A DNA stretch of 64,000 bases from Panorpa germanica. Lineage: Eukaryota; Arthropoda; Insecta; Mecoptera; Panorpidae. Position numbers and translations under genes: made by a program. Location: contig OY783207.1 in NCBI GenBank assembly GCA_963678705.1, positions 6,448,001-6,512,000 on the forward strand, written 5' to 3'. Shown in pieces: positions 15,401 through 61,040 of this stretch (positions are counted from its first letter, which is position 1; each line of letters begins with the position of its first letter). Below the pieces are notes generated by a model. The model was not told the origin of the DNA. It searched no databases and saw only the letters and a list, made by a program, of their open reading frames with translations.

Positions 15401-18400
15401 AAAGTATTTTATATGAAATGTAAATTAATTATAAAATAAATTCTATCCATAAAAATGATCTCGTTAATTCAACATTTTTACTGTGCAGTGATTCATACGT
15501 GTCAATATATAATTACACTTTATTTTTAATTAACATTTCAAACGTATTTTAATAAAGAAGTTGTTGACATTTTATTGTTTGCAATAGAATTAATTTATTA
15601 GAGCAGTTCAACATTGTTAACATTTAAAAGCTGACTATAGCTTGTTCACCTCGATTGATTTTTTTATTATATCCACATCTAGTATGCAATTCATGCTGAC
15701 ACAATGTTGTTATTAAATTTAATATTTTATACAAGGTTACCATACAATTTCTTTAGACAAGTATTTTCACTAGTTGTCGATAAATGTAGAATCCTATGTA
15801 GACTAGAACGAGCCGAGGCTTAAATAAATAAAATGTAAATTAATAAATGTATAAAACTATCTGAGTGAATACGTAGTACCGACAAAGCTAACCGATATAT
15901 AAAGCGACGCGTTTGTTTTCCAACAAATGTTGGATGTCTCATGCTGACACATACAGAAATGTACATAAGCGTATGTTTTTACTATCAATATTTTTTTAGC
16001 CAAAAAAATCTGTCCGCACACTTGTTTCCAGACTTCATAAAAACGTAAAAACATCCTTTTCTTGCACTCGTCTGACTTATCTGTTTTTTTGTATGAAATT
16101 TGTTTACGTGAGGTATTAATACCAGTTTTTCTAAACAAGTGTGCGTGTCTAATACCCTAATAAATACTTTAGCGAGTTAATAGATTTTTTTGTTATCTTA
16201 TGTCTAAAAAATGTCTATATATAAAACAGTGGATGCTACATTTCGAGATATTTTACAAAGTACACTCTGTTAAACAACTGTGACGTTTTAATTATACAAA
16301 TGTATTTCATTTATTAATACTTTGTGTTTAAAAATAAATTTGGAACTGTAATTATAAACATTTTGGGTACAATAAATGTATATTCCAAAGAAGATGAATC
16401 GTACGACAATTACACAGTTTTTGGTTTTTTTAATATAGTTTCTCGGGCTTCCTAGGCACGTAGCCTTTTATCGCCCCTAATATTGTTCTGCTTCTTCTTA
16501 TACGCTATATCCAGACAACAAGAATGATCTATTCATGGCTACTGCAGTTATAAATTTCGGTTTCTCAATCAAAAAGGAACTGTAATAACTGTTAACAGGA
16601 AGCGTCTGCGAAGTCTGTAGCACCGTCCTTTGGATTCCATTTCTTGCCATTGCTGTATTTTTATATTGCCACAGAATGTGGTAAAGTTACACAGTTTACA
16701 TAACATAAGTTACATAGATATAACATAAAAAACATTACCTCTTACATAATATTTTTTAGGTTATATAACAAAAGTTATCTTTCGACATAAATCGACATTT
16801 TTTGAGAGTAATTAGACTTTATATGCAAAATTATCACAAGAATTTTGATTCTTAACAATTTTCAAAACATTACATAAATCGTAGATAAAAATTAATTAAT
16901 TTCCAGATAAACTCGTTCTTTTAATAAATGTTTAATATAAATATTTAGACAAAAGTAATTTAAATCTTCTTAAAAAATTAAACAGATCAACACAGTCTTA
17001 ACTCTGTAATAATTTAAATAATATAATATAGTTTTTGACTTATAACGTCTATCATAATTAACAAACGTATAAAGAAAGTCTTATGTTTTTAATTTAGGGA
17101 ACCATTTGACGCCAGAGTCGCGCTGCGGCCCGGCCCGGCCTGGCTTAAGTTATTACTTTCGAGTTCTAAACATAAACCTCAGCGAGATAAGTAAATCTTT
17201 GAATTGCGTTAACCAACATAGAAAGGGCGGTGTGCTATATATTTAACCAACGAGTTGGATTTATTATCTATTGACTTTTATTCAGCCCATGTAGTTACTT
17301 CAAATGTTAAGTTTACCACAATCTGCATAACAAATCATTTAAGAGCCATGTGCACCAATTAAAATTTGCTATAAATTTAGTCAATCATTTCCGAATATTG
17401 AATATACGATTTTAAGTAGGATCGTAAATAATTTTAGGACGATAATAAAAGTTAAATGTAGTCCATTATAAAATAGGTGAGTTCTAAGAAATGAAAACAC
17501 GTGTGTGTGGATCTGAATCTGGATCCCAGTCACTGAACTTAACGCTGTTTGTTTTATCAGTCTGACTGGAATATAAACCTTTACGCGTTGTATACAAATG
17601 TGCTAGACACATATGTCTCACGACAAACTAAAAATAATTCTAATATGCTAGATTACTAGACGCATCAATAAACAATTCCGTTAGAAATGGTTTTGGACAT
17701 TTGTGGGAAAGAATTAACACATGACTTGTTCAGAATTATAAAAACAAACATTAGTAACTTCGAATGTGTTCAAAATAAACCTATAGCAATATAATTTCTC
17801 TAAATGACAAATAAACATAAGTATACTAAGTGTATTTATCCAAAGTTGTTGGTGTGTCAGCTGCTATTGTTGTTCACACATACATGTTAATTGATTAGAT
17901 TCCATTGTGGTTGCTGAAGCTGACTTATTTCGTTGTGTTACAGATTTCCCCCGTGTCGAGGTTGGTCCTCAGAATCCTTTGAGTATTGAACGGGACGCCA
18001 CTGCAACTTTAGAGTGCCGTGTCGATGCAAAACCGAAAGTAACGAGCGTTAAATGGATCCGAAATAATCGTGTCATAAGCACAGCGATGACTTACAAGAT
18101 TAATCGTGTTTCGCTGCAAGACGCTGGGAAATACGCCTGCTCAGCTGACAACATGCTTGGCAAAGTCGATGAGAAGGAAATAACGCTAGATGTCTTATTT
18201 CCACCGGTAGTTGTAATAGAATCAAAAACTTTTGAGACAGAAGAAGGCGAGATGGTCAATATAAAGTGCAATGTAACTGCTAATCCACCCCCAGAATCTG
18301 TTGAATGGGTAAAGGAAGGAAAACCGGATTTCCGACAAACTGGAGAAGTGTTGAGATTAGCACGCGTGACAGCGGAAACAGCTGGAATGTACATGTGTCG

Positions 18401-21400
18401 CGCAACAAATGTTATGATTTCATCTACTGGAAAACGTATGGAGAAAATTGGAAATTCGACGGTAGCTTTACTTGTCCGTCATCGACCTGGAAAAGCACGG
18501 ATTAGTCCGAATAAACCCATCGCTCAAGAAGGGTCTGGGGTTACTTTAACGTGTACAGCGAATCCTCCAGGCTGGCCAGCACCAGGTTACAGATGGTTCA
18601 GGGATGGCGACGCGGAATCTCCATCACAAACTGTTCTGCAGAGCGGAACGAAGTTCACCATTCCCAGCGCCCATTTGGGAAGCGAAGGCATGTACCATTG
18701 TCAGGCGACGAATGAATTAGGTGTTGGAGAAATGGCTAGCATCCATCTGGAAGTGCATCAACCACCTAGATTCCTCGCAAAGCTCCAGCCTCACATGACC
18801 CGCCGTGTTGGCGACAGTGAATTCACAGTAACTTGCAGCGCTCAGGGCAAACCCCGACCTTCCGTCCGATGGTTGAAAGACGGTGTCGAAATTACCCCAG
18901 AACCAAATCTGTACGAAGTTAAAACAGATATGAGTGAAGGGCGCAATTCCGTTGTCACGGTGGTGAGTATGTTGCGATTCATGGGTCGAGCGAGACCTGA
19001 AGAGAATCAGCTGGTTGCCAAGGATCGCGGGGTGTATTCCTGCATCTACGAAAATGAAGTACGCCGTGCTGAATCCAGTATGCACCTGCGCATTGAACAC
19101 GAGCCTATTGTTCTCCACCAGTACAACAAAGTAGCGTACGATGTTCGAGAAACAGCTGAGGTTATTTGCAAAGTGCAGGCATATCCCAAACCAGAGTTCC
19201 AATGGTCATTTGGAACCAACACAGCCACCCTGTACATGTCCTCCGATAAGCACTATGAAATCAATACGACAACAGACAACAACGATGTCTACACCAGTGT
19301 CTTGAAGATTGATCACATTAAGCATCAAGATTACGGGGAGTACAACTGTCGGGTAGCCAACGGCTTAGGCACCATGAAAACACCCATCCGTTTACAGCCA
19401 AAAGGAGCCCCTGAGAAACCCACCAACTTACAGTACGAGAATTACGGTTCGAGTTTTGTGACTTTGATGTGGAAACCTGGTTTTGATGGCGGACTGTCAA
19501 ACACTAAATTCTTCGTTTCTTATCGTAAAATTTCTATTGCAAATGACGAGCAAGTTTCTGGAGATTGTGGGGTAGTATCTGCCAGGAGTAGTGAATGGTT
19601 GGAATTTGATTGTCAGAGAAACGTGCCGTGTAACGTCACGTCGTTGGATCAACATCAGCGGTACGTCTTCAAAGTTAAAGCACTCAATACCAAAGGAAAT
19701 AGTGAGTACTCTAATGAAATCGACGCAACTACAAAAGTTGACAAGATTCCTGCACCTCAGCATGTTACCTTCGATCCCACCACACGTACGTTGTCAGTTA
19801 GTCTAGGAGCGACATGCCTATCGTTGGTGGCAGTTGTTGAAACTATAGTCAACGGCATCACACCGATGTGGCACAAAGTGGATGAGATACCGATGCAAGT
19901 ATCTGGAAGTGGACCGACCTACAAGGAGACCGTGATCGAACATCTAGCGTTTGGCCGTTCCAAGAGTAGCGGTAGATCGTTGTCCGAGGATGATATGAGA
20001 AACGATATGGACGACGATCTGAATCCCAGAGTGCAGGTTAAGCTGTGTCTTCGAGCCAATAAAGAACACTGCGGAGAATATACGGAAGCAGACAGTAAGT
20101 TAGAAAATCATGTACTTTTGTTACTAGTAATAAATACATATTAAATATTTCCATTTCCTTTTCAGTTGGAGCTTCTTACATAAAGGAAGCATCTGCGCTG
20201 GCAACACCGACATTAATTGCAATAATTGTGTCTTGTGTCGTCTTTGTCTTATTCGTTGGTCTTCTGTTAATGTTCTGCCGTTGCAAACGTAATCAAACGA
20301 AGAAGCAAGCCGCGAAGGATTATGAAATGGATTCAGTACGACCTTCTATCGTTACCCAACAAAATCAGGCCCCTCCCCCTTATTATCCGACAACTGGCTT
20401 AGAAAATAAAGCATTGGAACATTCAATGGACCTGGCATTGGCAATGGAGGATCCTAAGAACTCTGTCTATGCGACTCAAAATGGATACGGGTACCACCCC
20501 AATCCTAACATGCAACACACTGGACAACACAATATCAACGGCAACGAGTGTAAGTAACGATTTTAAACCGATCGACGACTTGGATCGTTTGTTGGATCTT
20601 TGCAATTACTAAAAGAAGACAACAAATTATTAGTTATGAAATTATGTTTTCGCACAAATTAATTATTTATATTTTAATCATCTGCAATCATTTTATTTCC
20701 GTATTTACACCTTTCTTTACTAAATCACTCCATTTTATTATGATTTATCCATCTTAAAGCATTTTGATTTATTTTTCTAACATGCTTCAATCATATCAGG
20801 ACTAGATGGCCCTCTAGATTTTCCAGGTAAAAGTAATTAAAAGTAGCACAGTGTTTTATGTGGTTGTCCCCTTTGTTACATTTATTTTCTTTGTTTAGGA
20901 CCACCCTCATGCTAGTGTATATTGTGACACGTTCATTATTTTTACAGGGGTAAATATGGGATACATGGATAACAGCTATTCAAACTCAAACAACGGCGGT
21001 AGCGTTAATTCACAAGATTCTTTGTGGCAAATGAAAATGGCTGCAGCTGCTAATAACAGTGTAAATAATATGCCTGCTCATCATATGGTTGACAGACAAA
21101 ATTCTTATGGATACGATCCCTTGACACATGGAGGCTACGGTGCTGTGGACGACTACGCCCCGTATCCTCACATTACAACGCAGAGCAACCACGGGGACGA
21201 TTATCACATGAGGAGTAGTCAGAATCCTTCACGACAAGAATATTGCAGTGATCCTTATGCAGCTGTTCACAAACCCAAGAAAAGGCTTGAACCACATTTA
21301 GGTAAGAACCAGTTCCTCCCTAATAGTTTTCACTTCCAATGAAGAACGCTGCACCAGGTTATAAGCAGAGCACACGGAGATTACATTTAGTTTTTTCTGT

Positions 21401-23520: not shown

Positions 23521-24109
23521 TTTTTTTGTTGTATATTTTAATTTATATATGTTATATTCCGACGCTACTGTAGAAGGTGGAAGGACATAACCAGTATCAA
23601 ATCCTAGATAAGTATAAATTAAATATGAGCAGTATACATCCTAGTGTTGTCGGAGAAGCTAACATTCTGGTTACTTAAAGTTGCATGCTGCAAATAGTAA
23701 AAATATTTTAGGAAATCATTATTTAAATTAATTAGTAGGTCACAACGTATCAGCGCCATCTATTAAATAGTAGCCGAAACAACAATGCGGTTCATTATTT
23801 ATTCAACAGATGGCAAGTTAATTTTAGTGCGCCGAGATAGTATGCAACCTAAGTAACTTGAGCAAATTAGAATAAAAAATTATTAAAATTAAAACGCAGA
23901 TTATACCAAAACCATAACAGATATTTAAAAATAGTTTTCAATTTTGGAACCAGCATTAAAAATTACGTTAGAAAACATATATCACGTGGCGAAATAGAAA
24001 AAGGGTTTTTATAAAAATTGAAGAAAAAAATTTGTCGATTTTTTAATGGGTTTTAATGTAGTTATGAATGCTGATTTCAAATCTGGAATTCATTTTTATT
24101 TAAGTCTTT

Positions 24110-25070
24110 TGGTTCCTGTTTCATTACTTTTTAAATATCTACGCGTGTCCGGCTTTTATGCGACCTATTTAAAATTCATGGAAATTATTTTCTAATTTTT
24201 TTTTTTGATTCCTTGAAATATTTTGATGCAGTTATGTTCGTTAGGCTTTAAAATAAAGAACTGTTTCAATACTTTTTATATATCTACGCGTGTCTGGCTC
24301 TTATGCAACTTATTTTCAATTCATGGACTTTTTTTTTCTAAAATTTTTTTTTTATTCTTTGAAATATTTTGATGCAGTTATGTTCGTTAGGCATTAAATT
24401 AGAGAACTACTTCATTACATTTTAAATAGCTAAGCAAATCCGGCTTTTATGCGACCTTTTTTAAATTCATGGACTTTTTTTTCTGAAATTTTTTTTTTGA
24501 TTCTTTGATATATTTTAATGCAGATATATTCGTTAGGCTCTAAATTAGAGAACTGCTTCATTACATTTTAAATATGTAAGCATATCCGGCTTTTATGCGA
24601 CCTTTTCAAAATTCATGGACTTTTTTTTTTGAATTTTTTTTTGGATTCTTTGAAATATTTTGATGCAGTTATGTTCGTTAGGCTCTAAATTAGAGAACTG
24701 CTTCCAAACATTTTAAATATCTTAGCATATCCGGCTTTTATGCGACCTTTTCAAAATTCATGGACTTTTTTTTCTGAATTTTTTTTTTTTGATTCTTTGA
24801 AATATTTTGATGCAGTTATGTTCGTTAGGCATTAAATTAGAGAACTGCTTCATTATATTTTAAATATCTAAGCATATCCGGCTTTTATGCGACCTTTTCA
24901 AAATTCATGGACTTTTTTTTCTGAATTCTTTTTTTTTGATTCTTTGATATATTTTGATGCAGTTATGTTCGTTAGGCATTAAATTAGAGAACTGCTTCAC
25001 TACATTTTCAATAACTAAGCTTTTCTGAATTTTTAGCGACCTTTTTTAAATTCATGGACCTTTTTTCGTA
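24110..25070. repeat. Left tandem array, six ~146-bp units
   Basis: Each unit contains GATGCAGTTATGTTCGTTAG, a TTAAATAT-type spacer, CCGGCTTTTATGCGACC and AATTCATGGAC followed by poly(T). Units differ by point changes and poly(T) length. Confidence 0.9.
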
Positions 25071-25919
25071 AAACTAAAATGTTTATATTTTTTGAAATTG
25101 ATTTATGTTTTCTAACGTAATTTTTTATGCTGATTCCAAAATTGAAATCCATTTTGAATTTTCTGTTATAGTTTTTGAGTAATCTGCGTGTAAAGTTGAC
25201 TATTTTTTTACTTTAAAATGGTCATATCTCGTAAACCAAAAGACTTACATAAAAATGAATTCCAGATTTGAAGTCAGCATTCAAAACTACATTAAAAACC
25301 ATTAAAAAACCAACGAATTTTTTTTTTTAATTTTTATGAAAAGTAAGAAGACTATACTCTTCTTACTTTTCATAAAAATTGAAGGAAAAAATTGTTGATT
25401 TTTTAATGGTTTCTAATGTAGTTTTGAATGCTGATTTCAAATCTGGAATTCATTTTTATGTAAGTCTTTTGGTTTACGAGATATGGCAATTTTAAATTAT
25501 TTATCAAAAACTTTACACGCAGATTATTCGCAAACCATAAGAGATAATTAAAAATGGATTTCAATTTTGGAATCAGCATAAAAAACTACGTTAGAAAACA
25601 TGTATCATGTGCCAAAATAGAAAAAGTGTTTTTTGTGAAAAGTAAGAAGACTAATACTCTTCTTACTTTTCATAAAAATTGAAAAAAAAAATTCGTTGGT
25701 TTTTTAATGGTTTCTAATGTAGTTTTCAAATCTGGAATTCATTTTTATGTAAGTCTTTTGGTTTACGAGATATGAGCATTTTAAATTAAAAAATAGTCAA
25801 AAACTTTACACGCAGATTATTCAAAAACCATAACAAATAATTAAAAATGGTTTTCAATTTTGGAATCAGCATAAAAAACTACGTCAGATAACACAAATCA
25901 TTTTTCAAAAATATAAATA

Positions 25920-27190
25920 TTTTAGTTTTAGAAAAAAAATGTCCATGAATTTAAAAAAAGTTGCATAAAAGCCAAACGCGCGTAGATATTTAAAAAGTAA
26001 TGAAGCAGTTCTTTATTTTAAAGCCTAACGAACATAACTGCATCAAAACATTTCAAGGAATCAAGAAAAAAAAATTTTAAAAAAAAGTCCATGAATTTTA
26101 AAAAAGTCGAATAAAAGCCAGACACGCGAAGTTATTTAAAAAGTAATGAAACAGTTCTTTATTTTAAAGCCTAACGAACATAACTGCATCAAAACATTTC
26201 AAGGAATCAAGAAAAAAAAATTAGAAAAAAAAGTCCATGAATTTTAAAAAAGTCGCATAAAAGCCAGAAACGCATAGGTATTTAAAAAGTAATGAAGCAG
26301 TTCTTTATTTTAAAGCCTAACGAACATAACTGCATCAAAATATTTTAAGGAATCAAGAAAAAAAAATTAGAAAAAAAGTCCATGAATTTTAAAAAAGTTG
26401 CATAAAAGCCAGACACGCGTAGGTATTTAAAAAGTAATGAAGCAATTCTTTATTTTAAAGCCTAACGAACATAACTGCATCAAAACATTTCAAGGAATCA
26501 AGAAAAAAAATTTTAAAAAAAAGTCCATGAATTTTAAAAAAGTCGCATAAAAGCCAGACACGCGAAGTTATTTAAAAAGTAATGAAACAGTTCTTTATTT
26601 TAAAGCCTAACGAACATAACTGCATCAATACATTTCAAGGAATCAAGAAAAAAAAATTTTAAAAAAAGTCCATGAATTTTAAAAAAGTCGCATAAAAGCC
26701 AGACACGCGAAGTTATTTAAAAAGTAATGAAGCAGTTCTTTATTTTAAAGCCTAACGAACATAACTGCATCAAAACATTTCAAGGAATCAAGAAAAAAAA
26801 ATTAGAAAAAAAAGTCCATGAATTTTAAAAAAGTCGCATAAAAGCCAGACACGCCTAGGTATTTAAAAAGTAATGAAGCAGTTCTTTATTTTAAAGCCTA
26901 ACGAACATAACTGCATCAAAACATTTCAAGGAATCAAGAAAAAAATAATTTAAAAAAAAGTCCATGAATTTTAAAAAAATCGCATAAAAGCCAGACACGC
27001 GAAGTTATTTAAAAAGTAATGAAACAGTTCTTTATTTTAAAGCCTAACGAACATAACTGCATCAAAATATTTCAAGAAATCAAAAAAAAAAATTTAGAAA
27101 GAAAATGTCCATGAATTTTAAAAAGGTCACATAAAAGCCAGACACGTTTAGTTATGTAAAATGTAATGAAGTAGTTTTTTGTATTAGAGC
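25920..27190. repeat. Right tandem array, eight ~146-bp units, opposite orientation
   Basis: Units are reverse complements of the left array: GTCCATGAATTTTAAAAAAG, CGCATAAAAGCCAGACACGC, AAAGCCTAACGAACATAACT. Copies are more alike within this array than to the left array, which suggests separate homogenisation in each arm. Confidence 0.9.
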
Positions 27191-27480
27191 ATACCGAGTG
27201 TAACTGCATGAATCGTCTATGTATTGAGACCAGATTGCAAAAGAAAAGGGTGGTAGTTCATGGATTAAATAGGTATAGCGGTTTAAGAAAAATGCATTTC
27301 AAATAAGCAAATATTCTTTGTTTGAATTTTAGTATATATATTATTTCATCTTTTATGACATTTATTATGCAGTGTTAATTAAGTTGCATACCGTCTCGGC
27401 GCAACAATTTTGATGTGCCATCTATTGAAGAAATAATGAACCTTGTTTATTTTTTCATCTACTTATTGATAGATGTCGCT

Positions 27481-28794
27481 TATAAAAACTTAAATGTTTG
27501 ATTAGTTAATGCTGCATTAATAATTATGTTCGAAAATGAATTTGTAATTGATCTAGTATTAACTTCATACGACAGGCCATGGCTTTGTTTACATTGAGGT
27601 TTTACTTAACCAGTATCCAGTATTACTTAACTTAATCCTTGCTCTACTATTATAGTGGATCGAATCCTTGCTATGTTTTAGGACCCTGAAATTTTACCGT
27701 TGAATTATGTTATTGTCTTTACACACATTTAGTTTTTGTTACAGATCCATCCAGTTTTGACACAGAATCGTTGTTATGGATTCTAATGCAAAAGTGCAGC
27801 ATCCTGGTGCCAACACATTCTTTAACACTTCAACATTGAATCTCAATTAGTTTTATTAATTATGAAAGTAGTATTTATGTAACATTTACAGACGTACAAG
27901 CCACATACATAGCAAATAGAAAGATTAACAAACAATAAATGAATATTATTTATGCTTACATTGTTTCTGCGAATATTCCAATTGTAAAACAAAATTAATT
28001 TGAATAAATTAATAGCTGAATTATTTATGTAAATTAAATTAATTGGAATGTGCAAAGAATTTTGATTTATTAAAATTAGAAAAAGGTATGGGGGATAACG
28101 TTGGTATGTGTATAACTGTAAAGTTCTCAATGGTTGAAAATTAATGAAACAGGTATGAATTATGACAATGATAGACCTAACAGCTTTTCATGGCATACTG
28201 TTGAAAACCGCGCTATTCCTAAAATAGATGTGCGCATGTTCTGTTAAATTAATGTTTACAGCAAATGTCAGTGTAACCAGCCTTGGCTTTGCTTGTGATA
28301 ATAACATGACCTTTGAACGCAGATAATTATTTGTTGATTGTATAGACGAACTACACTTGTACAATGAAGCCAATGGTTACAGGCCAAAATTCACTTTAGT
28401 ATTGTCCGTATTGTCCCGTAGTTGCAATGAACAATTTAAAGATACTATTTATTATTTTCTGTCATTGCCATTCATTCATTGATTTCTGTGAGATGCAAAA
28501 CGCACGCGCAAGATAAACGCCTGAAGGCCGACGCTGTCCTTGGACGTCGGTTTGTGCAGTCGTCTTGTTTTGTGAGAAATCATATCGCATTCTATCCATA
28601 AGTGTTATTTATATGTTCGCGTTAGTAAATCATATTTTGTAAATTATTTGTTATGGCCGTAAACAACAGTACTTGTGCAAATGTTACAAACACTTTAACC
28701 GAACGATCATTAACAACAGAAGTATTTGACAGCTGTTTAATAAATTAAAAATATAAATTTTAAAGTGAAATTGTGAATAAAAAATACAACTAAA
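27481..28794 (+). promoter_or_regulatory. Upstream region and 5' leader of cappuccino
   Basis: No frame is supported. A locally GC-richer patch at about 28498-28560, 240-300 bases before the ATG, contains GTGCAGTCG (initiator-like CAGT) and is the likeliest promoter. This placement is inferred from composition only. Confidence 0.35.
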
Positions 28795-34700: not shown

Positions 34701-37700
34701 AGGACGATGTCGTACTATCGCAACACCCCCTTCCAAAAAAAAGGGACACGTATAAAAACAAAATATACGAGTTACAATTCTGGAAAAAAACAAAAAGAGA
34801 AGCAAAGTGTCGACAACGATTCTGATCCCATCGTATAGAGTTGACACTGCCTCACAAAACAATCATCCCTGACAAAATCCATCTAACACGTCAAGGTTTT
34901 GTTGATTGGTACAAAATCTCTTTAATCTATTCCTATTAACTACCGTATACTTTCTAGGTGAAAAAAAAGAATTGACCCTTCTATCAAAATTTAATTTAAA
35001 TTTTGGTTTATTACTAGTAAATTTATTTGTAGCTAAATCAATCGTAGAAGAATATTTTGCACCACTAAATTGGTCTAGTATGTCATGTACGAGAGGCAAA
35101 GTATAAACATCACTTGTCGTCTGTTCATTAAGTTTACGATAGTCGATTACAACGCAAAATTGTTTGTTCCCCGACACATCTGCTTTTTTAGGTACCATTA
35201 ACAGAGGTGCGTTAAACTGTGAGTCGCATTTTTCAATAATGTTGTTAGCCAACAGTTCTTGAATATGCTTCTCAACAATTTCTTTATGCGCATGAGATAA
35301 TCTATGCGGCTTAATGTTTACAGGGTTAGGTGAGTTACTCAGTGCACTCGCACAAGATAACTTATCTACCGGGAAAAAAAATATGTTATTAAAATTATTA
35401 CAGATTTCCATTAAATCTGTTAAGTATTTTGAATTAACATTTGAAAAATCTATATTATTAAATAAAAGATGTCGTAAGGATCTTTTAGGATCGTTAGGAT
35501 TTCTTTTCAAAAAATGGTAAAAATTAAATTTATTTATTGGAATAATATTTGGTTTAAAATTGTTAAGTATTACATCTTTTGCTGAGGAATTAGTTATTGA
35601 TATATAAAAAGTATTATTAACAGGATTAATTAATGCGTTGGCTAAAAAAACTTCAGGTAGCAATTCCTTGGCTACACAAACTCCTACCGTAGAACCCGAC
35701 ATAGGAATTAATTTCCTAGTACGTGCTGGAACTATGATAATACTGTTTATGTTCAATAATGGTAATTCAAATATTTTGCCATGTTGTGAGAATTGTACGC
35801 TGTTTGTTTCCAAATTAATTACTGCTTTAAATGTACGTAAAATATCTAATCCTATAATTCCATCGTGTTTAATGGGGAAATCCTTTGACACAACCTGAAA
35901 AGTATGTTTCGACCTAGAACTATCTAAAATTATAGAAGTTTTTAGTGAACCTAAAGTATAAGGCGTGCCTTCAGAGATTCCCTTTAATAACACTTTAGAT
36001 GTACTATCTATTTTGATATTATTTTTTAAAATATTTTGTTTAATTAAAGAAATTTGAGAACCAGTGTCCAATAAAAATGATACAGTCTTTGCTTTGGCTG
36101 CGACTATTCTGAATTGAACAGTGTCAGCTGTTTGCTTGTCAATAACATTTTCATTGTTACAGTTAAAATTTGTTATATCATTGGTATTTTGTATTTCTTT
36201 AATCTCAATATTTTTATTTAAACTATTAAATTTACGTAAATGGTGATTATAAAAAGAACGTGAATTTTGTTTTGTATTTTTAGTAAAAGATACTTGAGGA
36301 CCATCAGATTCAAGATGTCTCGATCTTTTACAATAAACAGAAGGTTTTGAAAATACCGTATCTCTCCTACAAATATTAATTTGCGCGACAGGATATACCG
36401 TATCCGCATTTTCCTTCTTGATAAAACAATATTTCTCTAAATGACCATTTTTTTTACAATAGTTACAAAAAAAAGTTTTAAATTTTGTTTCGACTTCGTT
36501 AGCAAATTGTTCACTTGAAACTGGTTCACTACTAGAAATAGAATGACTTGAATCTGTTTTAAATTCAACATGCCTTCTTCTTTCTAGAGTGCGCCACCGT
36601 GTTTCAAGAAAATTCGTAAAATCATTTAGGGTTGGTAATTCAGAAGTATTTCTGTTTTCCCATTCCTTTAATGTGTTAAAATCTAACTTGGTCTTTAAAA
36701 AATGTATAAAAATAAAATCTGAATGATTAGAATATATTCCCAACTCGGTTAATGCTCTAATCGATTCATTAATTTCGTCTAAAAAATTTTTGATATTAGT
36801 TTCTGATTCTAAACGTATAACATTGTAGTTTATCAAATTGTTTAAATAGGTTTCAATAAGTGCTACCTTGTTATCATAACGTTTACAAAGGATGTTCCAA
36901 ACAATTTCATAATTATCGTTTGTTAAAGGATAATTCTTTATGAGTTTGAGTGGTTCTCCTGTCAAATTTAATTTTAAATAATGCATTTTTTCAATGTTTG
37001 ATAGTTTGCTATTATTACGAATTAAATTTGTAAATAATTCCATGAAACTTTGCCAATTAGTATATTCTCCATCAAAAACGGTTAGTTGCATTGGACTTAA
37101 GTTCAGATTTTTTATTGAATCTATGCTTTTTGAGTCGTCTACAATATGTGTATCATTCTCAAATGTTTGCTTATAATTCAACAAGTAAATAAGAGTGTCG
37201 TCATAAATACTTTCAACTTCCATAGACTTACTAACGATAGCCGTAGCTTCTTCATTTTTTAGAATTGGAAGCAGTGCTTCTACGATACTACTATATTTAA
37301 CCCAAGCTTTATCTAAGTTTTTGATTTTTAATTCAACTATTGTTAAGGATGTTGATTGGACTTCTAAATTTTTTGAAAACTCATTAATTAGATTGATTGT
37401 ATTCTCAACTAATGTGAGGGAATGAACGTTCGGTGCCATTGTACTTAATTAAAGTTATATATAATATACAGACTAAAGATTATTTTGTACCAATAAACGA
37501 CTCTCCGAAAAATAGGATTCTGACAAGGAAAAATTGTTAGCGAAAACAGTAACTCACAGGAAATTTCCGATGGGGCTCAGACACCGCAGTTGTAACAGGA
37601 AGGTAGTCTCTCTGATTGAACAGACTGCTATCTAACTGCTTCAGCTCTTTACTTCTCCTTTTCAAAATTCCCTCTCGTTCAAAAAAAGATGTTGTTCTAA

Positions 37701-40700
37701 AAAAATATTAACATAAATTAGTATAATTGCGGAAACAATTATAAAAAAAATATTATAGTAAATATTCAAAAGTATTGGAATATAATACTAAAAAAATTAA
37801 TAGCTTCAATGACAAACAATGATGCTACAAAAAAGTTAGGTTATAGCAAATATTCAAAAGTACTGAATATAATACTAAAAAAATTAATAGCTTCAATGAC
37901 AAACAATGATGCTACTAAAAAAAGTTAGGTTATAGCAAATATTCAAAAGTATTGAATATAATACTAAAAAAAAATTATAACCTCGTTAATAATGATGCTA
38001 ATAAAAAATACTTGGATTATAGCAAATATTCAAAAGTACTGAATATAATACTAAAAAAAATGATAGCTTCATTAATAACGTTGCTATATAAAAAAAATAC
38101 AATTATCAATTTATAGTAATAATTATATACAAAAAAAAAGATACTGTCTTATTATACTTAAAGATTTTCTTATCAGTGATTATGATCTATAAACAGCTGT
38201 GTGCAGGGCTCTGGAGACGATTAACATCGATTTAGATTATTCCATGTGTTCTAGAAGCATCCATCCATTCGCTGGGGGCAAAAGATTTCTTTTTTCTGAT
38301 TCAGCGGGCTGTAGTTTTGCATCCACCGGACTTGTAGAAAATTATGAGAAATACAGATGAATTGACGTTCTATCTCGTACTCTTCGGCAATCTTGGAAAT
38401 AATCGATCGACGTAGTGGTATCCAGAATAATTGATCTGCATCCAGGTGTAGAATATATAGAAAAAAATTTTGGGCGTACCTCTTGGATATTTATGTGTAG
38501 GAATATCTCTTCGAGACCCCACCTGACACCATTTGTTGTAAGTATATTCGAAGGCGGATGTTACACCTGACATCAATGTTGTAAAAAGAGGTCGGATTGT
38601 CGTTCTAGAAGGAGATTACTCAGCTTGCTAATACATTCCGCAGGGATGCTAGTTTCTGGAAGTAGACTCTTCAGTTGACGATCATCCACCTTCTTGAATT
38701 ACTCACGTTGATAAGAATTAACTCTTTTAAGATGATTAACAGGATTCTTGTTAAGACGGTGTATTGTTGCAATTTGAGAATACTTGAGCGGCCTAAAGTA
38801 TAACCTCGTTGCAACATACGACGGTTGAACAATTAGTATCTTTTAATTACTATTAATACAAACACTTTTATTAAAATATATCATTTATTCGTTGTAATAT
38901 TATATCTGCGTACTTAATTACAATAGTATTTTATTGGATTAATAAAGATGCCAGATATAAAACAAAATGTAATTCTAGTGTTATAATTTGATTAATAGTT
39001 AAAATGTGCTCACTATTGAATACTTAGATGTTACAATTGGAGTAATGTACGAACGAAGTACAATTAGTAAACACTTGGTTGAGACTCCGGAGAAGACTGA
39101 CTTTCTGACTAGCGTGCAGATTAATATATAATGATTTATTTCACATCACAATGTGCCAATACTGAGTTACCAGCATTAAAATAATATAAAATCTCCACAG
39201 ACCAGAGTCAATGTTTACAAGCGCTAAATACAAATAATTATTTATTACAATATTAATACTAAAATTAAAGATAACGTAATATAATTCTTATAAAATAAAT
39301 AACATTTATATTAAAAATAGGAAGGATAAGTACGACTTATGCGTACTTACAACAATACATATATCGCATTTACGTAACAATTTGTTTTGGTTACATTTAA
39401 TTGTAAATTTTACTTAAATAATACATAACTGTGTTTAAAGAAGTACACGTACCAGAGAGCGTAAAATTAAATTCGTTGTTTATAAATCTTTTGTAGTCAT
39501 TTCTTAATTTATGTTTAATTTTACAATATTTGTAGTAATTTTTATCGAGCCTTAAGTATCATTCCTACACACTGCCTTTATTTAATTTTGTATTTAATTT
39601 AAATTGTTTAGCATATGGCAATACGCGTAGTCATTCACAGTATTTATTTTTTAGGTTTTCTTAGTTTTTGTGGAACCTTACAAGGTCCAATGTTTTAAAT
39701 TAAAAATATTAAATTAAGAAAAACTATATTATATTATAACCTCCAAAATGTGACAATCTGTCAAAATGCAGTAGATTTTATATTTAAAAGATGTTTAATG
39801 TCAGTTTGTCAGAAATAAAAACAATATCTATTACTAATTGTTATTAAAAACAGCAATTTAATTATTTCACCTTCAATTTTGTCAAACTGTCGAAGTATCA
39901 AAATTTATATAACTAACGATGCATGCACACCAACTAAATTAACTAAATTCAAATTAAAACACGAATGTGACTCGGAATGCCTATTCCGAAAATCTTAAAT
40001 CTAGATTAAAATATTAGATTAAAACAGTTCATTAAATATCAAAACAGTGAGTTTGCTGAACGCTTTAAAATTATTGATGTTTTATACTAATCGGAATTAC
40101 TGTAGTTGAGTTAGTTTCGAGAAAATCTCGTTCAAAATGTTGACGCGATACATGGAGTTAAACAAATAGCACAGTTGTACCAATATCTTTCTCATGAGGC
40201 TTATTAATTATTTATTTTATTATTACCTGTTAATTTTTAATTTATTTAAGGATCAGCCTACAATAAATTGAGAGAAAAGATCAATTTTTTATAAAGGTCA
40301 AAAATTTGCAACAGATTTTTAATTTCCTGATAAACTATCGTTTTGAATGGCAATGCAATGTGGTACAATAAAATTCTTCTATAAAATCATTCCTAAAATT
40401 TTTCTTTTCAACTTTTGTGTTAAATTTTTCGTGCAATGGTAGTTCTTGTTTTATTTGATATTTACACAAAAAAACTATGTAATCTCTATGTAAATTTTAC
40501 TACTGTTTTACCATTAATGTAACATCTATGCAGCAAATACAATTATATTACGTAAACGCTACATAACTCTGTGTTAATTGACAATTAACCTATGAAATTA
40601 ATAGGAGATTTTAAACTAAAATATTTGTGATCAATATGGTTTTGTTATGCATAGGCGCTTGCAGAAATTTTGATTTCTAAATGTGTGTCTGTGTATGTGT

Positions 40701-43700: not shown

Positions 43701-46700
43701 ATTACTGTGTACTAAGCTTTACTGTGTCTTAGGGTTCGATCCCTTGAGCAGCGCTATATTTTTTGGGTCCTATCATATAGAAATTATTGAGAAATCATTA
43801 TCTCTAGTAAAATGTACTTAATATATTATTTGGAGAGTTTTAAAGAAAGAATATATCTTCCAAAATGAGGGAAATGTGGTCTATTTTCAAGGTGTATCAT
43901 TTATTTCAATTGCTGGCTTACTTAAAGATATCATTTACACACATAAATAAAAGGAGAAATTACTTCTTTAGAAGAGATAAAGACTTCCTTTTATCACATT
44001 TATTGTGATGTGTTTAGTAATTCTAATTACTTGAATATAATCTTTTTATGTTTATTAAACATCTTTATCTTAAACTAGTGATCATTTTTATTACTGTTTA
44101 TTCTTTTTCCGTAAATATCCACACCAAGAAAGTGTCAGTTTTTTTTCAATAAGTTATTTTACAAATTTGATGATTCACAACTGATAACTTTATTTATTTA
44201 ACACTTTTTTATAGGGTAATAGCAAATATTTGTCTAACCTAACCAAACATAACCAAATTCTATAAAAAAGGGCATATTAATTACAGTAATTTAATATTTC
44301 TCATTGGTTCGACGTTCCCACGTTGCTAGCAGCATAATTTCAAACTCGTTATCAAGGTGCGAATCTATGTATGATTCACGACTGTCCATTTTGGTCCAAT
44401 CTACAGATAACAATCCAGATCTAGTTCTCTTTCGTTAACGATCATTGTATAGCGAGTTATGTTGAGAAATTATTTCTTGTATTTCCTAAATTTAGTAGAT
44501 TCCCAATGATAAAAAGTGTTAAGTGGTTGAATGTATCAAAAGTAATTTTAATATTGTTATAAGCATAGTGATTCAAATTATCTAAAGAAAAAGAAAGTTG
44601 AAAATTATTTAAGTTTTTTATTGAAGTATAGTTATAATAGTTCTTGTAAAAATTGTTCTTAAAAACTGCCTCAAGAATGTTATCTAATATAATGTTAAGT
44701 GACCTTTTTTATTATTAGAATCATAAAATTACCTTATTTAGGATTAAATGCTAACTGTTGGTTTCTATACAAAGATATCGAAGAAGCCCTAAATTACAGA
44801 AACGTTACGCAATTGCCGAGACAATAATTTAATTAAAATTATTTGTCATAAATAACCGGAAGGTGTACTCTTTTGAATAAAGTGACAATCAATTAAAAAT
44901 ATTCATCGGTGTAGTTTTAACGGCAGTTTCAAAAAGAAACCACCAGATGGCCCACTTCGTAAAATCATAAAACGTTTTTTGTGTTATTATACATATTTAA
45001 AATTTTAACAGTATTTAAGGTAACATTAATATTTTGCGTTTATCGGGGCATGTTATTTGATCCAATTACAAAACCTTACATATTATTATCTTGCAGTTGT
45101 CAAAAATATATAGTTTTATGATTCAGCAAAAGAATTATTAAAGACTTTGTCGCGCAAAGATTATATCTCAAAGAGAATGGCAATTCATGTAGCCAATAAC
45201 AATAAGATAAACAATGGTACTTGATGACCTTATTTTTTAATCCATTTAAATGAGTCATACGAACGACAATTACATAAACAAACTGTTTGTTGATCAACAT
45301 CAACTATGGTTCGAATGTGGGCTCAACGGGGGTAGGCGTTTGATACTTTGCATTTACTTTTGTTCTCAATATCCGCCTTATTAATCAAATTTTAAGTAAA
45401 ATTATCATTGGACAAAAACATGCATCAAAATAAAATTATAATACAGGGTGTCCAGAAAGGGTATCGGGTATTTGTTTTCGCGCCATATTCGAAACGGGGC
45501 GTCTAAAGGGTGCGGGGAGGGGTTCGTGGCGTCCGCCATTCTGTGGAGTTTTAGTCACGATGGAACAGTACTCGGGGATGCATCGCGCATTTTGCGTACG
45601 AGCGTATTATCGTAATGGTGATTCAATAGTGACTGCTCAACGTCTATATCGTACACGCCACGCGCCAAGTGACGATAGCATTAGGAAATGGATCAGGATG
45701 TTCGAGAATACAGGTGCGACAGTTAAAATTCAAAACTCTGGTCGTCCTCGTTCAGTTCGCGATGAAAAAACAATTGAAGAAGTTGAGGCGTCGGTTCGTC
45801 AAAATCCGTCTGTATCCATCCGAAAGCGAAGCCAAGCGTTGAACATCAAAAAATCGTCTTTACATTACATTTTAAAGAAAGACTTACATCTAAAAGCCTA
45901 TAAAATTCAATTGGTTCAAGAATTGAAGGATACGGACTAAGAATATCGATAGCTATGTGTCAACGTGTTATCGCCAATCTTCGTTTCCGTTTAGAAGAGT
46001 GCCAGCAACGTAACGGTCATCATTTGGATAACGTCATCTTTTCCAAATAATTCTCCAATTCATATGCTAATAATAAACAATAAACTTTTTTATTGCATAC
46101 AAATAATTTTTGTTTCATTGAACTTACAAATACCCGATACCCTTTCTGGACACCGCAGAATGAGCAGTCACTATTGAATCACCATTACGATAATACGCTC
46201 GTACGCAAAATGCGCGATGCATCCCCGAGTACTGTTCCATCGTGACTAAAACTCCACAGAATGGCGGACGCCACGAACCCCTCCCCGCACCCTTTAGACG
46301 CCCCGTTTCGAATATGGCGCGAAAACAAATACCCGATACCCTTTCTGGACACCCTGTATAACTTAATTTTACATGTTTTTAAGGCAAAAGTGTAAATGTA
46401 CTTTAGTGAGTGCCGCCTGAACATTTTGATGTGTGATGTGTAAAACCAGCCTTACAGGGTACCCTCACTCAGTGTACAATTATTCAATGTCGCTTTAGGC
46501 GCCAATTTTGGAATAGTGAACTAAGATGCTCGGCGACTCAATGTCGCTTTAGGCGCCATAAGTCGCCTTTTTTGGAATAGTGAACTAAAATGGAATAGTG
46601 AACATAAATCTTATCTTTTTGCACATAGCATATTTATGAAACGTTTTTAAGTAATTTTTTAAACGTTTTTAAATAATAACATAAGAGCCTTTTAGATTAA

Positions 46701-49700
46701 ATATTACCTTATTTTCCTTGATGAAATATTTTATCAAAGTAATGTTTTGTACACACTAGTGCGACCTAACATTTGTTGGAAAAAGTTGTGCAGCACGTCT
46801 TCACCGGTGTAACATGTGACTTAATACATTGGCATCCTTTGTAGTTTGTACGAATCATTAAGCCCATTTCATATGTTTAGAACAAGAAAAATGGGACTTT
46901 GAAAATAAAGAAAATAATACATATATATATACTCGTATGTCTCGTAGAGTTAAATGAATCTCGCATACTGGAGTCCCACCAGTTTTTACGGGACTTAAAA
47001 TCCATGCTTTATATATTGTGAGTGGTAATCGATTCTTTTTAACAGTAAGTTTATCTTCTTTCAGGTCAGATGCTTATCAATTGGTTCCTATCCGCTTTTT
47101 CGGATGATCATAGCGGCAGAGGAAATTCGTCCGATCAACAACTTCGTCTGATGGTGGTACAAAATTGTTCTTATTTATTAGCTGCTGGTGTACTTAGACA
47201 AATCCCTGATAAACAAGAACCGTTGACACCTACATTTAGAGTAAGTATAATATTTTAACCGGGGAAGTAATGAGATATAGATATAAGTATCCTTGAGTCT
47301 AAATTATGTGTTTTTCTTTTTCAGCCAGACTTAATGTACTATTGGGCTCATGCGGAGACTCCAAGCGCTACTCCAATAACTCCTGGACGTTTGGAGTCAA
47401 TGTCCTGGCCTCCAACGTCTGATCAAATAGACGAAGACTCTAACAACAGACTGAACGAACAACAAAATATGAAAACAGCAAGTAGATTAACTTCCAGTAA
47501 ATCGGAATCCTTTGCACTTACAACATTCATAGAAAAAGCAAAAACAGAAAACCAAAGTTCCGATTCTTTTTTAAGAATAATAGATTTAAACAAGTCCCCT
47601 CAAAATTTTCAAAATCTACCAAGATCATCAGTGAGTACACCAAAAAAATCAGATGACTTTGCGACAAAACGGATATTGGAATTAGAGGAAACAGTTTCTA
47701 GTCTTCGCCGTGAATTGGAAAGGATAAAAACTCTTGCAGATATTCAGTCTTTAACCAGAAACGCTTTAAAAGACTTTGGATCTCCTGAAAGTGAAAAATC
47801 GGATTTAATATTTATTGGAAATGTTAGTGATAGTGATAAAAGCAATAAAACTAAATTTAGTAATAGAACAGATGACTCTGGCATTAGTAGTGCGGGGGGC
47901 TCGGATAAATCCAGTCTTTTAAAACATAATTCCTCATGTAGTGAAATTTCTTTAAATAAACAAGGATCAAGTGAAAGTAGTGTAAGTTTTTCTTCGTCTT
48001 TAAGTTTAAATACTGTTGATTCTAGTAGGGAAATAATATCTTCCAATAACTCAGTGCATTTACGTAAAGCAGTTATTCCTAAAACTTCATCACCGGAGAC
48101 TTTATCTAAGGATCATGATGAATCGCAAGTGTCAGTGAATAATATTTCTGTTATTGATAAGGACCAATCTCATATGGCAAGTTTCTCTGAAAATAATAAA
48201 TCATTGAATACAAAAAATGAAATAAATTCAGATTTGTCAAAACCGGAAAGTACAACAATCTCAACTCGTGCAACGAAAGAGTTAATATCTCCAAATAGAT
48301 TAGACGTTATTGAAGAAACATTGCAGCCAACTTCGATATCAGAAACAAATAATGAGATACCAACAGCAAAACCATCTTCAATGCCACCAATTCCTCCTCC
48401 AATGCCTGAAATGTCTCCTGGTATGCCAGGACTAGCAGGACCTCCGCCACCGCCAATGCCAGGAATTACAGGACCACCACCACCTCCAATGCCTGGAATA
48501 GCAGAACCACAAGCACCACCAGTACCTGGAATGGCAGGACCTCCACCACCACCAATGCCTGGAATGGCAGGGCCACCTCCTCCTCCTCCTATGCCTGGAA
48601 TGGCAGGACCACCTCCTCCTCCAATGCCAGGAATGGCAGGACCTCCACCACCTCCTATGCCAGGAATGGCAGGACCTCCTCCTCCTCCAATGCCAGGAAT
48701 GGCAGGACCTCCCCCACCTCCTATGCCAGGAATGGCAGGACCTCCACCCCCTCCTATGCCTGGAATGGCAGGACCCCCTCCTCCTCCTCCTATGCCTGGA
48801 ATGGCTGGACCTCCTCCTCCTCCAATGCCAGGAATGGCAGGACCGCCTCCACCTCCTATGCCAGGAATGGCAGGACCTCCACCTCCTCCGCCTCCAATGT
48901 TTGGTATGGGAGGTCCGCCTCCACCACCAATGATGAATATGGGTGGTCCGCCACCGCCACCACCAATGGGAGGACCCCCACCACCGCCTCTTCAAGGACA
49001 TCTGCCAAGTCCTTTCCCTACACCGCCTGTTGGAGGATGGAATCCTCCAGGAAGAGCATGTAAGAATAGTATTTTTCTTTTCAGTTTTCAGTCAGCGTTC
49101 TAGACTAAACTAGTTTTTCAATGTAACAACGCATGGAATTTTAGGTTGAAGGAACTAGAAATTTCAGCATGCTAAAAATAATATTTCAAATAATTTTCCG
49201 AATAATCACTTGCTTGTTTCCAAATCATTAACATAGGGAATGCACTTAGGTACCCTCTCACTTTACACGTTATTTTTTTCCCTCAGCGGTTACGTGTCCC
49301 GGAATATTCCCAAGTAAGTGTTTATGACAGTCGTCTTCATATTGATGTCTTGATATAGTTAATTTTTGGAAACAAACGTCTTGTTGTTAGTGTCTACTAA
49401 TTCGGATAATGATAATTATATCTTTTCCATAATTAGCGTTGCGAAAAGCACCTATAAACCCAACTATTCCTATGAAGCCCCTATACTGGACGAGAATTTT
49501 GGCTGCTCCGACTCCAGCACCTTGTCCTGTTGCGTCCAAGGCTAAACCGCTGTGGTTGGTATGTAACTTATTCACAATTTTCTGCATTGGGGATTTAGTT
49601 TATACTTAGATGCATTTATAATTATACCTGTTTCTTTCAGGAACTTGAAGAAGCAAAGCTTGATAACTTGACGGAATTTACCAATTTATTTTCACGTCAA

Positions 49701-57300: not shown

Positions 57301-60300
57301 TTCGAGTTCTGTATTAGGATGGAAACCGTTCATAAATATTGATGGTAAATCAAGAAATTTAGAATATTATATTTATCATATAAAAATAATTTAAATAATA
57401 AATAGTTACGGTTATGTTACTGGACACATACCGTGGAAGATATCGCAATAAAAATAAATCAAATGCGTCAATAAATTTTTAGTTGCCCATAAAGGTTTTC
57501 CTACTGCACAGCCTATAACAGAATTAATAAAAGAATTAAAGTTACCGCTAGAAATGCCTTATAGTGACGGACACTTGAATGCCCTAAGAAAACACGTCAA
57601 AGGTTTAAAGGTAAAGGTTAATCCTATAGCAATATTTCATCAAATTTTAGTTTTCATTATTTTCAATTTAATAAATAACAGGTCCGATATGAAATTCCTA
57701 ATGTCATTAAAAGAAATTATCGAATAAATGATCTGGTACTGAATCCTCAGGATTTAAAATTCACAGATGATACAGGTGATTGAATCAAATTATAACCTAA
57801 AACTAAATCTATTCTAGTTAAGTATATGATGAAATACCTTCCCTACATGTTACACTGCATTTTTTTTTATTATTTTGCAGGCAAACAGTTTTCTGTCAAG
57901 GAATATTATGAGAAAACAAGAAAATACAAATTATTATATCCATTCCTTCCATGTTTATGGGTTGGAAGTCTTAAGAAACAAATCTATGTGTTATGTGAGC
58001 TGTGCACCATTCTGCCTGGACAGGTATAAGAATTATAATATTAAGATGGATTTAGAGACACTAGACATAATTGTAGACGAAAGTATAGTCAAGTGTTTGT
58101 ACTAGTGAACTGCCTTATATAAAATAAATACCATCTCATATCTTTCATCTTAGTCCCATGATTTTTAAATCTCTAAACATGCCTGTAATTTAAATAATAT
58201 ATTTTTTATTTAATAGGTTGTAATGAAAAAATTATCGGAGATGCAAACCAGGGTTATGATCTCTGAAACAGCCACATCAACAACAGTACGCAAAAAGAAA
58301 ATTTTAGACGCATTTAAAGAGGTAAATTTCTTTTAAATTATTAATAAATATTTAAAAACTATTTCCTATTTTCTTTAACTACGTTTTGCAGAGTGGAATC
58401 CAAGGTGATTTGAGTCTTAAAGAATTTGGAATATCCATCAATAACGAATTTGAAAAAGTTCCCGCTAGAGTATTAGAACCACCAATGATTACTTATAGGA
58501 ACAATACTACAGTTCAACCTAAGTACGAATTGATAGTCCAAAGACAAAGTCTGTAAATTGACCCCTTGTATAAACAGACCTTTCTTTTAATTCAATTTCC
58601 ATCCAGTCAATATTTTGCTCCAAATAATAGGCCACTGTTAATCCTACTACAGTACTGTAATAATTATGTTAGAAGACTGATAATTAAATAATTTTTCTAG
58701 AAATGGCGTGTGGTACCCCGAAAAGTTCTTTAAAGGGGCTAATTTAGAAAAGTGGGCAATTTTTAATACCGCTTCAAGATCCATACAAAATGATCAGTTA
58801 CGAGAATTTGCAAAAAATGTACGTAAATAATTTTCATATTTATATAAAATATTTTATAGAATGTAACGTTTTTTATATAAAATATAAATAACTGTGTTTA
58901 AAGGGTAATTAATTTGATTATATTTAATTTTACAGATAGTTCTAATAGGTAAAAAGATGGGAATGAACATAAAGGACTTACCTGTTGTGCCTCTGACCCT
59001 AACAAATTGCAGCAATAAAGAACTTGAGTCATGTTTTGATAAAATTAAACAGAAAAATCTTCAGCTTGTGTTTGTTATAATATCCGACACTGGAGAACTG
59101 TATAGCAAGGTACATAATTAACAAACAATCATTTAATTATAATTGGCATTATCCCCACTTATTCATCAAATGAATCTGTTGAAAAAAAATAATACATATA
59201 TCAATATTATTGAATAATGTTTTTATTATTGTTAATTTATTTTAAAGTTATTTTTGTTTTAGATAAAACAGTTTGCTGAACTGAGGTATGCGGTATTAAC
59301 ACAATGCATTAGAGTTAAAACCGCTATAAAATTGAATGCCACCGCTATTTCTAATCTTCTATTAAAAGTAAGATTTTCACAACCTTGATATGTTTAAGAT
59401 AACCATTATACTCCTTGATTTGATACTTTAATTTAAGGTGAATACAAAATTATGTGGAGTTAACCACAAAACACCAATTCTAAGCGTTCGTCCAGCTATT
59501 TTTAAAAATCCGGTTATGATTATAGGAGCCGATGTCTCTCATCCATCACCTGAGCAGGTAAATGCAACAAATAATAATAAAACAGAACAAATTTACACTG
59601 GATAGATTTGAATTCGTGTTCTTCGGCTTTGTTCTGTACTATTGTTAATAAATTTAGAGTCTCTTAGAACAATTAAATAATTAAAATGAATTTTAATATT
59701 TAAAATTATAGTTTTTATAGTAAAAAATTATTTATTTAGACAGAAATTCCAAGCATTGTGGGTTTAGCAGCTTCGTATGATCCTACTGCTTTTAGATATA
59801 ATATGGTCTGGAAATTACAACCACCAAAGGTAATCCTTTAATAAGTTAGATACATTTTAATCAGAAATTAATCTCTTCTTACAATAAAAGCACAGATAAT
59901 ATTATTTTACTATTATATTTATTATTATATATTATATAAAATAGGTAGAAATTATTGAAGAATTGGAAAGTCTAATGGCAGGGTTGTTATTCGATTTCTA
60001 TGATAAAAGCGGTATTAAACCATCTGCACTAATTTTATATAGAGATGGAGTTTCAGAAGGCCAATTTCGGCAGGTATCTTAATCCATTATGATACTAATT
60101 TCATCTGGTAATGCATATATATTTTGAACCTAATTGTTTCCTAAATAAATACAAGGTTCTTAATTCTGAGCTGACTGCTATTCGCAGAGCTTGTAGCAAA
60201 ATGAATTTGAACTACAAGCCAAGTATCACAATAATGGTAGTTCAGAAAAGGCATCACACTAGAATGTTTCCTACTAAACAAGAAGATATTGTGGGTAAAC

Positions 60301-61040
60301 CATTGTAAGATTTCTTTTTACTTCCATTAATATTTTAAAATAATTTTAATACTAAAATTAATTACTACAACTGGAGTTAAAATATTTTAAAATATAGAAA
60401 TGTTCAACCAGGCACTGTTATAGATACAGTAATAACACACCCTACAGAATTGGAATATTATATGGTATGGTATATTTGTTTTTAATTTAAATCATAATTA
60501 TTTGAAAGTAATATGAGCTTACTTTACTCACCGCTTGTAGATGTCTCATCATTCTATTCAAGGAGTTGCAAGGCCTACTAAATATCGTAGACTTTGGGAT
60601 GATAATGATATGAGCGAAGATGAACTGCAACAATTAACATTTTATTTATGCCATATGTTCAGTCGATGCACTAGGTCAATTTCTTATCCAGCTCCAACAC
60701 TTTACGCTCATCTTGCCGCATATAGAGGACGTGTATATCTTGAAGGGTAAATTAATCTTCCAGACCTCCTTTAGCTTGACATGCTCTTACAAAATTAATG
60801 CTAGCTTAAACAATGAAAGAATACTTAAATAATACGTAAATTATATTTTTCGTGCTTTCTCTGCATAGAGTTGCAAAAATCCTATTATATATACTATTTA
60901 TACATACATATATGTTATTTTTAGTTACCTTAATAATATTTTTCAGGAGCAAAATTGATCTGACTGATTTAAAGCGCGAACAGGAAAAGCGCTCATCATG
61001 TATGAAGTTTTGGAAAACTTCTCCCATGTATTTTATATAA
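54380..61040 (+). CDS. AGO2: Argonaute protein of the AGO2 (siRNA) type
   Basis: Twenty-six coding exons with GT-AG borders and matching phase, from 54380-54395 (MGKKKG) through 54850-54950, 55178-55358, 55430-55537, 55699-55752, 55823-55891, 55981-56099, 56168-56335, 56744-56835, 56910-57006, 57221-57344, 57483-57610, 57682-57775, 57881-58023, 58217-58321, 58392-58522, 58701-58818, 58936-59109, 59263-59367, 59438-59557, 59740-59829, 59945-60073, 60156-60304, 60398-60464, 60541-60746 to 60947-61040; about 993 residues. Order: Lys-rich acidic linker, N domain, PAZ (about 345-500), MID, PIWI. MID keeps the 5'-phosphate pocket (LYSKIK, TQC, VNTKLCG). PIWI keeps DEDH: D741 (GADVSHP), E781 (VEII), D813 (YRDGVSEGQ), H951 (YAHLAAYRG), so it should slice. 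Divergence from the near-invariant AGO1 sequence supports AGO2. The first exon is tiny. Confidence 0.92.

Follow-up and report, generated by a model that had tools for sequence, protein, structure and literature searches.

A palindromic satellite element in Panorpa germanica and its probable carriage by Helitrons

The window analyzed here is a stretch of 64,000 nucleotides from Panorpa germanica (contig OY783207.1, positions 6,448,001 to 6,512,000), in which eight of the 14 open reading frames (ORFs) of at least 110 amino acids were scanned, giving Ig/fn3, lipase and retroelement fragment matches. An earlier note, made from the sequence alone, had described a 3.7-kb foldback element between the 3' end of echinoid and the promoter of cappuccino; the part of this gene context that was checked shows an Ig/fn3 ORF at 17,907-20,144 (+) and formin-like exons at about 47.3-51.1 kb (+), the latter read by eye. 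Within the proline-rich part of the formin-like gene, 33-bp repeats (48,423-48,990) correspond to units of 11 residues. The window also holds an 858-amino acid ORF with DUF1759 and a retroviral-type protease (34,863-37,439, -), presumably a BEL/Pao-like retroelement fragment, exons that read by eye like an Argonaute protein (58,918-60,750, +), and a short coding piece present twice in opposed orientation about 0.2 kb apart (45,434-45,940, +; 46,124-46,451, -), read by eye as probably the remains of a DNA transposon. A minisatellite with a period of ~87 bp lies at 37,753-38,071, and minisatellites of similar period adjoin several of the array and module loci described below.

The element itself (Table 1) consists of two opposed arrays of a 146-bp unit that flank a palindromic centre of ~0.85 kb and are themselves enclosed by inverted end modules. 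Tandem Repeats Finder assigned a period of 147 with 88% matches to the left array and a period of 146 with 92% matches to the right; mapping of a reference unit placed six near-full units and one partial unit on the minus strand and eight units and one partial unit on the plus strand, so the opposed arrays of six and eight units in the earlier description are real. That description lacked the centre, which is built of ~293-bp units. The arms, ~1.2 kb long (24,116-25,355 against 25,654-26,881), align with 1,075 identities, 141 mismatches and 36 gaps, a similarity far above chance, while inverted pairs within the window show 78-90% identity, the longest spanning 604 nt at 85%. The inverted ends of roughly 100 bp that had been reported are likewise present, as ~107-bp segments (23,752-23,857 and 27,374-27,480), and no ORF of at least 110 amino acids overlaps the element, in agreement with the reported absence of a transposase. 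The proposed extent, 23,752-27,480, delimits a real structure with soft boundaries: on the left, similarity begins at AGCG, and on the right, similarity to the module consensus continues 22 bases beyond 27,480. Read outward, the left end module gives ...GGCGCTGA followed by T, and belongs to a dispersed repeat of roughly 110-190 bp.

Table 1. Parts of the palindromic element, in window positions.
Feature	Position	Strand	Basis
Left end module (AGCGCCATCTAT...)	23,752-23,870	+	23,752-23,857 matches the right end in inverted orientation at 77% identity
Pieces of the central ~293-bp unit, left end to left array	23,885-24,114	.	Repeat families and unit matches
Left 146-bp array, 6.5 copies	24,116-25,066	-	Repeat detection and unit mapping
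Palindromic centre, ~293-bp units both ways, short palindrome (hairpin tip) at the axis near 25,356	about 25,080-25,930	.	
Right 146-bp array, 8.8 copies	25,931-27,209	+	Repeat detection and unit mapping
Right end module	27,370-27,502	-	27,372-27,502 corresponds to consensus positions 4-133, 79%

The end module, marked by AGCGMCATCTAT, is a dispersed repeat in its own right. A 22-base end pattern has 283 matches with at most two mismatches, against none for the control, so that other copies with these ends exist, as the earlier note had supposed; its worry that a general satellite had been assembled here by chance is not borne out, since 33 of the 54 distinct places fetched via the two ends of the window element also include 146-bp units in the ~1.5 kb of sequence read to each side (near-identical loci L020, L021 and L024, and both window ends, each being counted singly). 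A genome search with the left end scored 40 matches of 65 first-look candidates. Among the 33 array-associated places, the module is oriented as in the window in 24, reversed in eight and unclear in one. Modules also occur in tandem, at a spacing of about 170-280 bp (L015, L028, L033, L040, L067), as well as alone, without arrays, or near other minisatellites. In 16 of 55 modules, a conserved ‘A-flank’ extending outward past AGCG reaches a score of at least 14 of 21, where controls reach at most 13. Because similarity passes AGCG in this subset and the module faces either way, we do not accept AGCGMCATCTAT as clean transposon ends: these ends are common to the family without behaving as clean termini. 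In a module-consensus search whose query itself included the A-flank (400 candidates, 40 scored), module starts fall into two classes, at the A-flank or at AGCG, so AGCG may be the true edge in some copies. The module was also considered as a Helitron 3' end and rejected, its short hairpin showing no covariation (199 of 280 Watson-Crick cells, against a shuffled mean of 200.4). After CGCT, 21 of 55 modules have RRT (0-12 at slid positions), a count that the conserved flank past AGCG could raise on its own.

These observations bear directly on whether the element is a Foldback- or Tetris-like transposon with terminal inverted repeats, in which AGCGMCATCTAT modules would be ends recognized by a transposase, the arrays would lie within long terminal inverted repeats, and movement would depend on a cut-and-paste enzyme encoded elsewhere. 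We consider this unlikely. Having arrays inside the long inverted repeats and distinct domains outside them does match Tetris as set out in the available text of its description (PMC4079207), the module adjoins arrays at 33 of 54 places, and one locus (L013, bases 1498-1996) has the module at each end of a 493-bp stretch, together with a 138-column inverted repeat starting from ACTAGCG, in a 3.1-kb locus holding no 146-bp units. Such ends do not sit well, however, with a module found in both orientations, in tandem and solo, or with the similarity that runs beyond AGCG in a subset of modules. Nor was a target duplication of 5-10 bp, which the earlier note had proposed to define, found at any of the three two-ended loci (the window, L013 and L023) by a loose test that is positive in 253 of 1000 random pairs; and the genome-wide protein search, made for the Helitron Rep domain only, gave no autonomous partner with these ends. 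The same features give no support to the Foldback/Galileo-type element bounded by AGCGMCATCTAT ends that had been put forward as one of two possibilities.

The 146-bp unit is a general, abundant satellite in this genome: its 25-base core has 9,067 matches with up to three mismatches in 464 Mb, against none for the reversed control, and a search with the whole element returned at least 260 matches, 150 of them listed (33 of 1,860 candidates scored). Among the first 100 exact core matches listed, which form 24 clusters, six clusters are on both strands, all in the order minus then plus, and the remaining 18 have units on one strand only when exact matches alone are considered. The order of minus array, centre and plus array, with the same centre unit, is found in the window and in the larger loci read; exceptions in order are L031, where a partial plus unit precedes a minus unit, and the ambiguous L046. 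Since this inverted order and the same centre unit recur on several chromosomes, we conclude that the palindrome itself was copied.

A possible vehicle is indicated by the edges of the arrays. The flanks of array loci on C15, C21, C9 and C19 stop together at ...GTTGCAACGGGTCGAACAGCTAGT (the C15 read ending inside it), where an 8-bp-stem hairpin is followed by CGAACAGCTAG and then T, with 12 bases between the stem and the printed end. Young carriers thus display the features of a Helitron 3' end (CTRR, T next, hairpin 10-12 nt upstream). The stability of the hairpin is unexceptional relative to shuffled sequences (z -1.05), and the end is therefore identified from its sequence and position and by comparison. 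The base after CTAG is T in all 16 array-type ends read, of which eight have mutually dissimilar flanks (L005, L006, L084-L089) and the other eight fall into two groups of related flanks (L008/L074/L075 and L077/L090/L091). Genome-wide, the array-type end has 47 matches with at most one mismatch (control 0). When the matches listed were combined manually into 33 array loci and these were compared with the 40 ends listed, at least 17 had a Helitron 3' end at an array edge, facing outward in 19 of 19 such ends, and 16 had none among those 40 ends, the positive counts being lower bounds. Loci found through the AGCG module have this end in few cases (L020/L021/L024, L058 and partly L050), so most old copies are unexplained by a Helitron route. 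On C4, a helicase-like frame, which reads like a helicase C-terminus with a Pfam match below cut-off only, lies between two opposed Helitron Rep domains and is followed by hairpin-like sequence and CGGGTCAGCTAG before T, an end resembling the array-type CGAACAGCTAG.

A 1.44-kb block beside the left array, 94-100% identical across six copies (query included) and shared in part by others, reveals a second, inner end. Directly ahead of this block, the copies at C9:17.04, C21:43.37 and C21:37.84 Mb carry a different hairpin and CTAG before T, while at C15:7.57 and C21:46.25 Mb this inner hairpin and CTAG end is damaged. The copy at C4:1.45 Mb instead reads ...CATTAAATA/TAATTGATAT..., with A/T where the others carry the inner CTAG/T end; judged from its sequence, it would represent the expected pre-insertion site of the inner Helitron, a comparison made at one site, with the 5' junction of that Helitron outside it. 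Upstream, the copies at C21:46.25 and C9:3.66 Mb start, after an A, with TCTTATATTATAATGTCCGAGG, also read as TCTTATATT after A; the C15 carrier has T, not A, before TC, leaving the TC after A of a Helitron 5' end in two of the three carriers. The TCTTATATTATAATGTCCGAGG start has 2,006 matches genome-wide with at most two mismatches (control 0), one of which sits 3.5 kb ahead of a 1,489-amino acid frame with a Helitron Rep domain.

By coordinates, the carriers span about 4.1 (C9), 5.7 (C21) and 7.0 kb (C15). Two of the carrier loci (L004 and L005) contain no ORF of at least 90 amino acids, and the carrier part of L070 has a single ORF of 90; lacking a Rep/helicase protein, the young carriers are non-autonomous, and the young relatives are probable non-autonomous Helitrons carrying the palindromic satellite. 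Among 150 Rep matches listed (893 candidates), none lies within 200 kb of the listed array loci, compared by eye. No copy read combines the A/TC start with both an intact inner 3' end and the outer one; the start was read on three copies and the intact inner 3' end on three others. Bypassed inner 3' ends, and one copy reading as a pre-insertion site, are nevertheless each seen on some copies. By analogy with known capture, the layout of the carriers is that predicted if a Helitron bypasses its own 3' end, captures the flank and stops later.

The repeated architecture, Helitron-type 5' ends and 3' ends at array edges likewise each occur on some copies, and the reading we favor is that the palindromic satellite element has probably been carried by Helitrons through read-through capture. 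Palindromes of opposed 146-bp arrays would, on this proposal, move as Helitron passengers: a Helitron would insert beside a palindrome at an A/T target and later fail to stop at its own 3' hairpin; copying would take in some 1.5 kb of host DNA as well as the entire palindrome before halting at an older Helitron 3' end (hairpin and CTAG) on the outer side of the array; and the joined Helitron-palindrome unit would then spread by rolling-circle transposition. We infer the order of these events, how the palindrome first arose, and that the window copy would stem from an earlier round of this process.

The window copy has the long inverted repeats holding tandem repeats of a foldback element. Its ends read CTGA and CTTA, each before T, of which CTTA does not conform to CTRR; an exact search with two short motifs did not find the Helitron 5' core in it, and no match to the Helitron 3' end lies within the element. 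As the copy has neither Helitron end, the evidence for the route comes from its relatives, and its own movement is inferred. Since no target duplication supports a foldback transposon and the copy has no Helitron end, we class it only as a palindromic satellite element; taken together with the passenger route, our moderately confident view is of an old, non-coding copy of a dispersed element of this kind. Of the hairpin-satellite alternative offered in the earlier note, half holds: the 146-bp unit does form a general satellite in this genome, and the younger copies resemble cargo of Helitrons.

At three loci the array-type 3' end is present on each side (L074 and L075 on C19, and L090/L091 on C6; palindromes at C19:4764537-4768002, C19:6248395-6251125 and C6:1044085-1047041). 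The flanking sequences of these loci are inverted as well, and no 5' end was seen in them; for L075, almost the whole 4.5 kb fetched is palindromic. L074 and L075 share flanks and so may represent one event, duplicated. Simple Helitron transposition does not produce two-sided loci with inverted flanks, and an inverted duplication before or during spread is likely. A related arrangement is found on C4 (L092, C4:2036600-2037600, bases 1-1001), where two Helitron 3' ends, both CTAG, form a tail-to-tail mirror around TATATATATATATA; lying between opposed Rep domains, they look like an inverted dimer.

Such loci would also fit a more radical scheme, which we regard as doubtful, in which Helitrons themselves make mirror-image products. 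A replication fork might turn back at a palindrome or a TA tract, giving inverted dimers with Helitron 3' ends facing outward on both sides; the window element would be an old product of this kind (A/TCAGCG...GTCGCTTA/T), and the AGCG module an eroded 3' end from an older Helitron lineage. The three two-sided loci (two of them related), the mirror at L092 and the RRT count of 21 of 55 lead in this direction. They are set against a module hairpin without covariation and an A-flank, in 16 of 55 modules, that could raise the RRT count. Were the scheme true, the foldback shape would be a by-product of rolling-circle transposition.

We rate two further explanations as improbable compared with carriage by Helitrons. 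That an ordinary satellite was locally inverted by breakage and repair, with nothing mobile, would suit the abundance of the 146-bp unit and the 18 of 24 listed clusters with one orientation only (exact matches only), but the recurrence of the same inverted order and centre unit on several chromosomes counts against it; we hold it to be quite improbable. Retention of the palindrome as a hairpin-RNA or satellite-RNA locus, whose transcript would fold and be cut into small RNAs, is slightly more improbable still, for although the 1.2-kb arms and short palindromic tip suit it, a unit present in thousands of copies across many loci resembles a selfish repeat and the inverted pairs of the window have drifted to 78-90%.

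Several known systems offer partial parallels to a palindromic satellite carried by Helitrons. FB and Galileo, foldback elements of Drosophila, share the foldback shape and tandem repeats in the arms; unlike in these elements, target duplication was not found here (three loci, loose test). DINE-1 is a satellite-carrying non-autonomous Helentron. Tetris of Drosophila virilis, according to the available text of its description, is a foldback with ~220-bp tandem repeats in long inverted repeats and target duplications of 8-10 bp (PMC4079207). The present element resembles it in being a modular, non-coding foldback whose tandem repeats also form satellite arrays and which has outer flanking domains, but it differs in that no such duplications were found at three loci, and in that its young relatives carry Helitron ends, an association not seen in the available part of the Tetris account (PMC4079207). 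As in the non-autonomous Helentrons of the oyster (Cg_HINE), short satellite arrays are dispersed on rolling-circle elements with a 3' palindrome; the available text reports Cg_HINE arrays as always in one orientation relative to their flanks, in contrast to the two opposed arrays around a palindromic centre found here (PMC7492417). Read-through beyond the 3' hairpin with capture of flanking DNA was shown experimentally for Helraiser, in the part of that report available (PMC4778049). The carriers share with it a 5'-TC after A, CTAG-3' before T, a hairpin ~11 nt upstream and uptake of flank at a bypass (PMC4778049). They differ in having an entire palindromic satellite as their captured cargo and, for a new stop, what resembles an older Helitron 3' end.

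Among the best literature matches on palindromic or inverted Helitrons, foldback satellites and lepidopteran foldbacks, in a collection with most subscription journals outside its coverage, no title or abstract opening describes this structure. The origin and spread of palindromic satellites are poorly understood, and young relatives with Helitron start and stop signals suggest a concrete route by which such DNA may spread. A single genome here holds likely steps on different copies, namely an old foldback satellite, a bypassed Helitron 3' end, and fresh carriers with a Helitron-type start or stop. This connects foldback elements with dispersed satellites and with Helitron capture, subjects commonly kept separate.

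The sequences involved are unevenly placed among the matches listed. Among the first 100 exact 146-bp cores, every one on C1 or C2 is located past 20 Mb, and the 150 listed Rep matches (893 candidates) include C1 members below 10 Mb, C2 members below 19 Mb and many on C5, a large number of them having an identical score and a 1119-amino acid frame.
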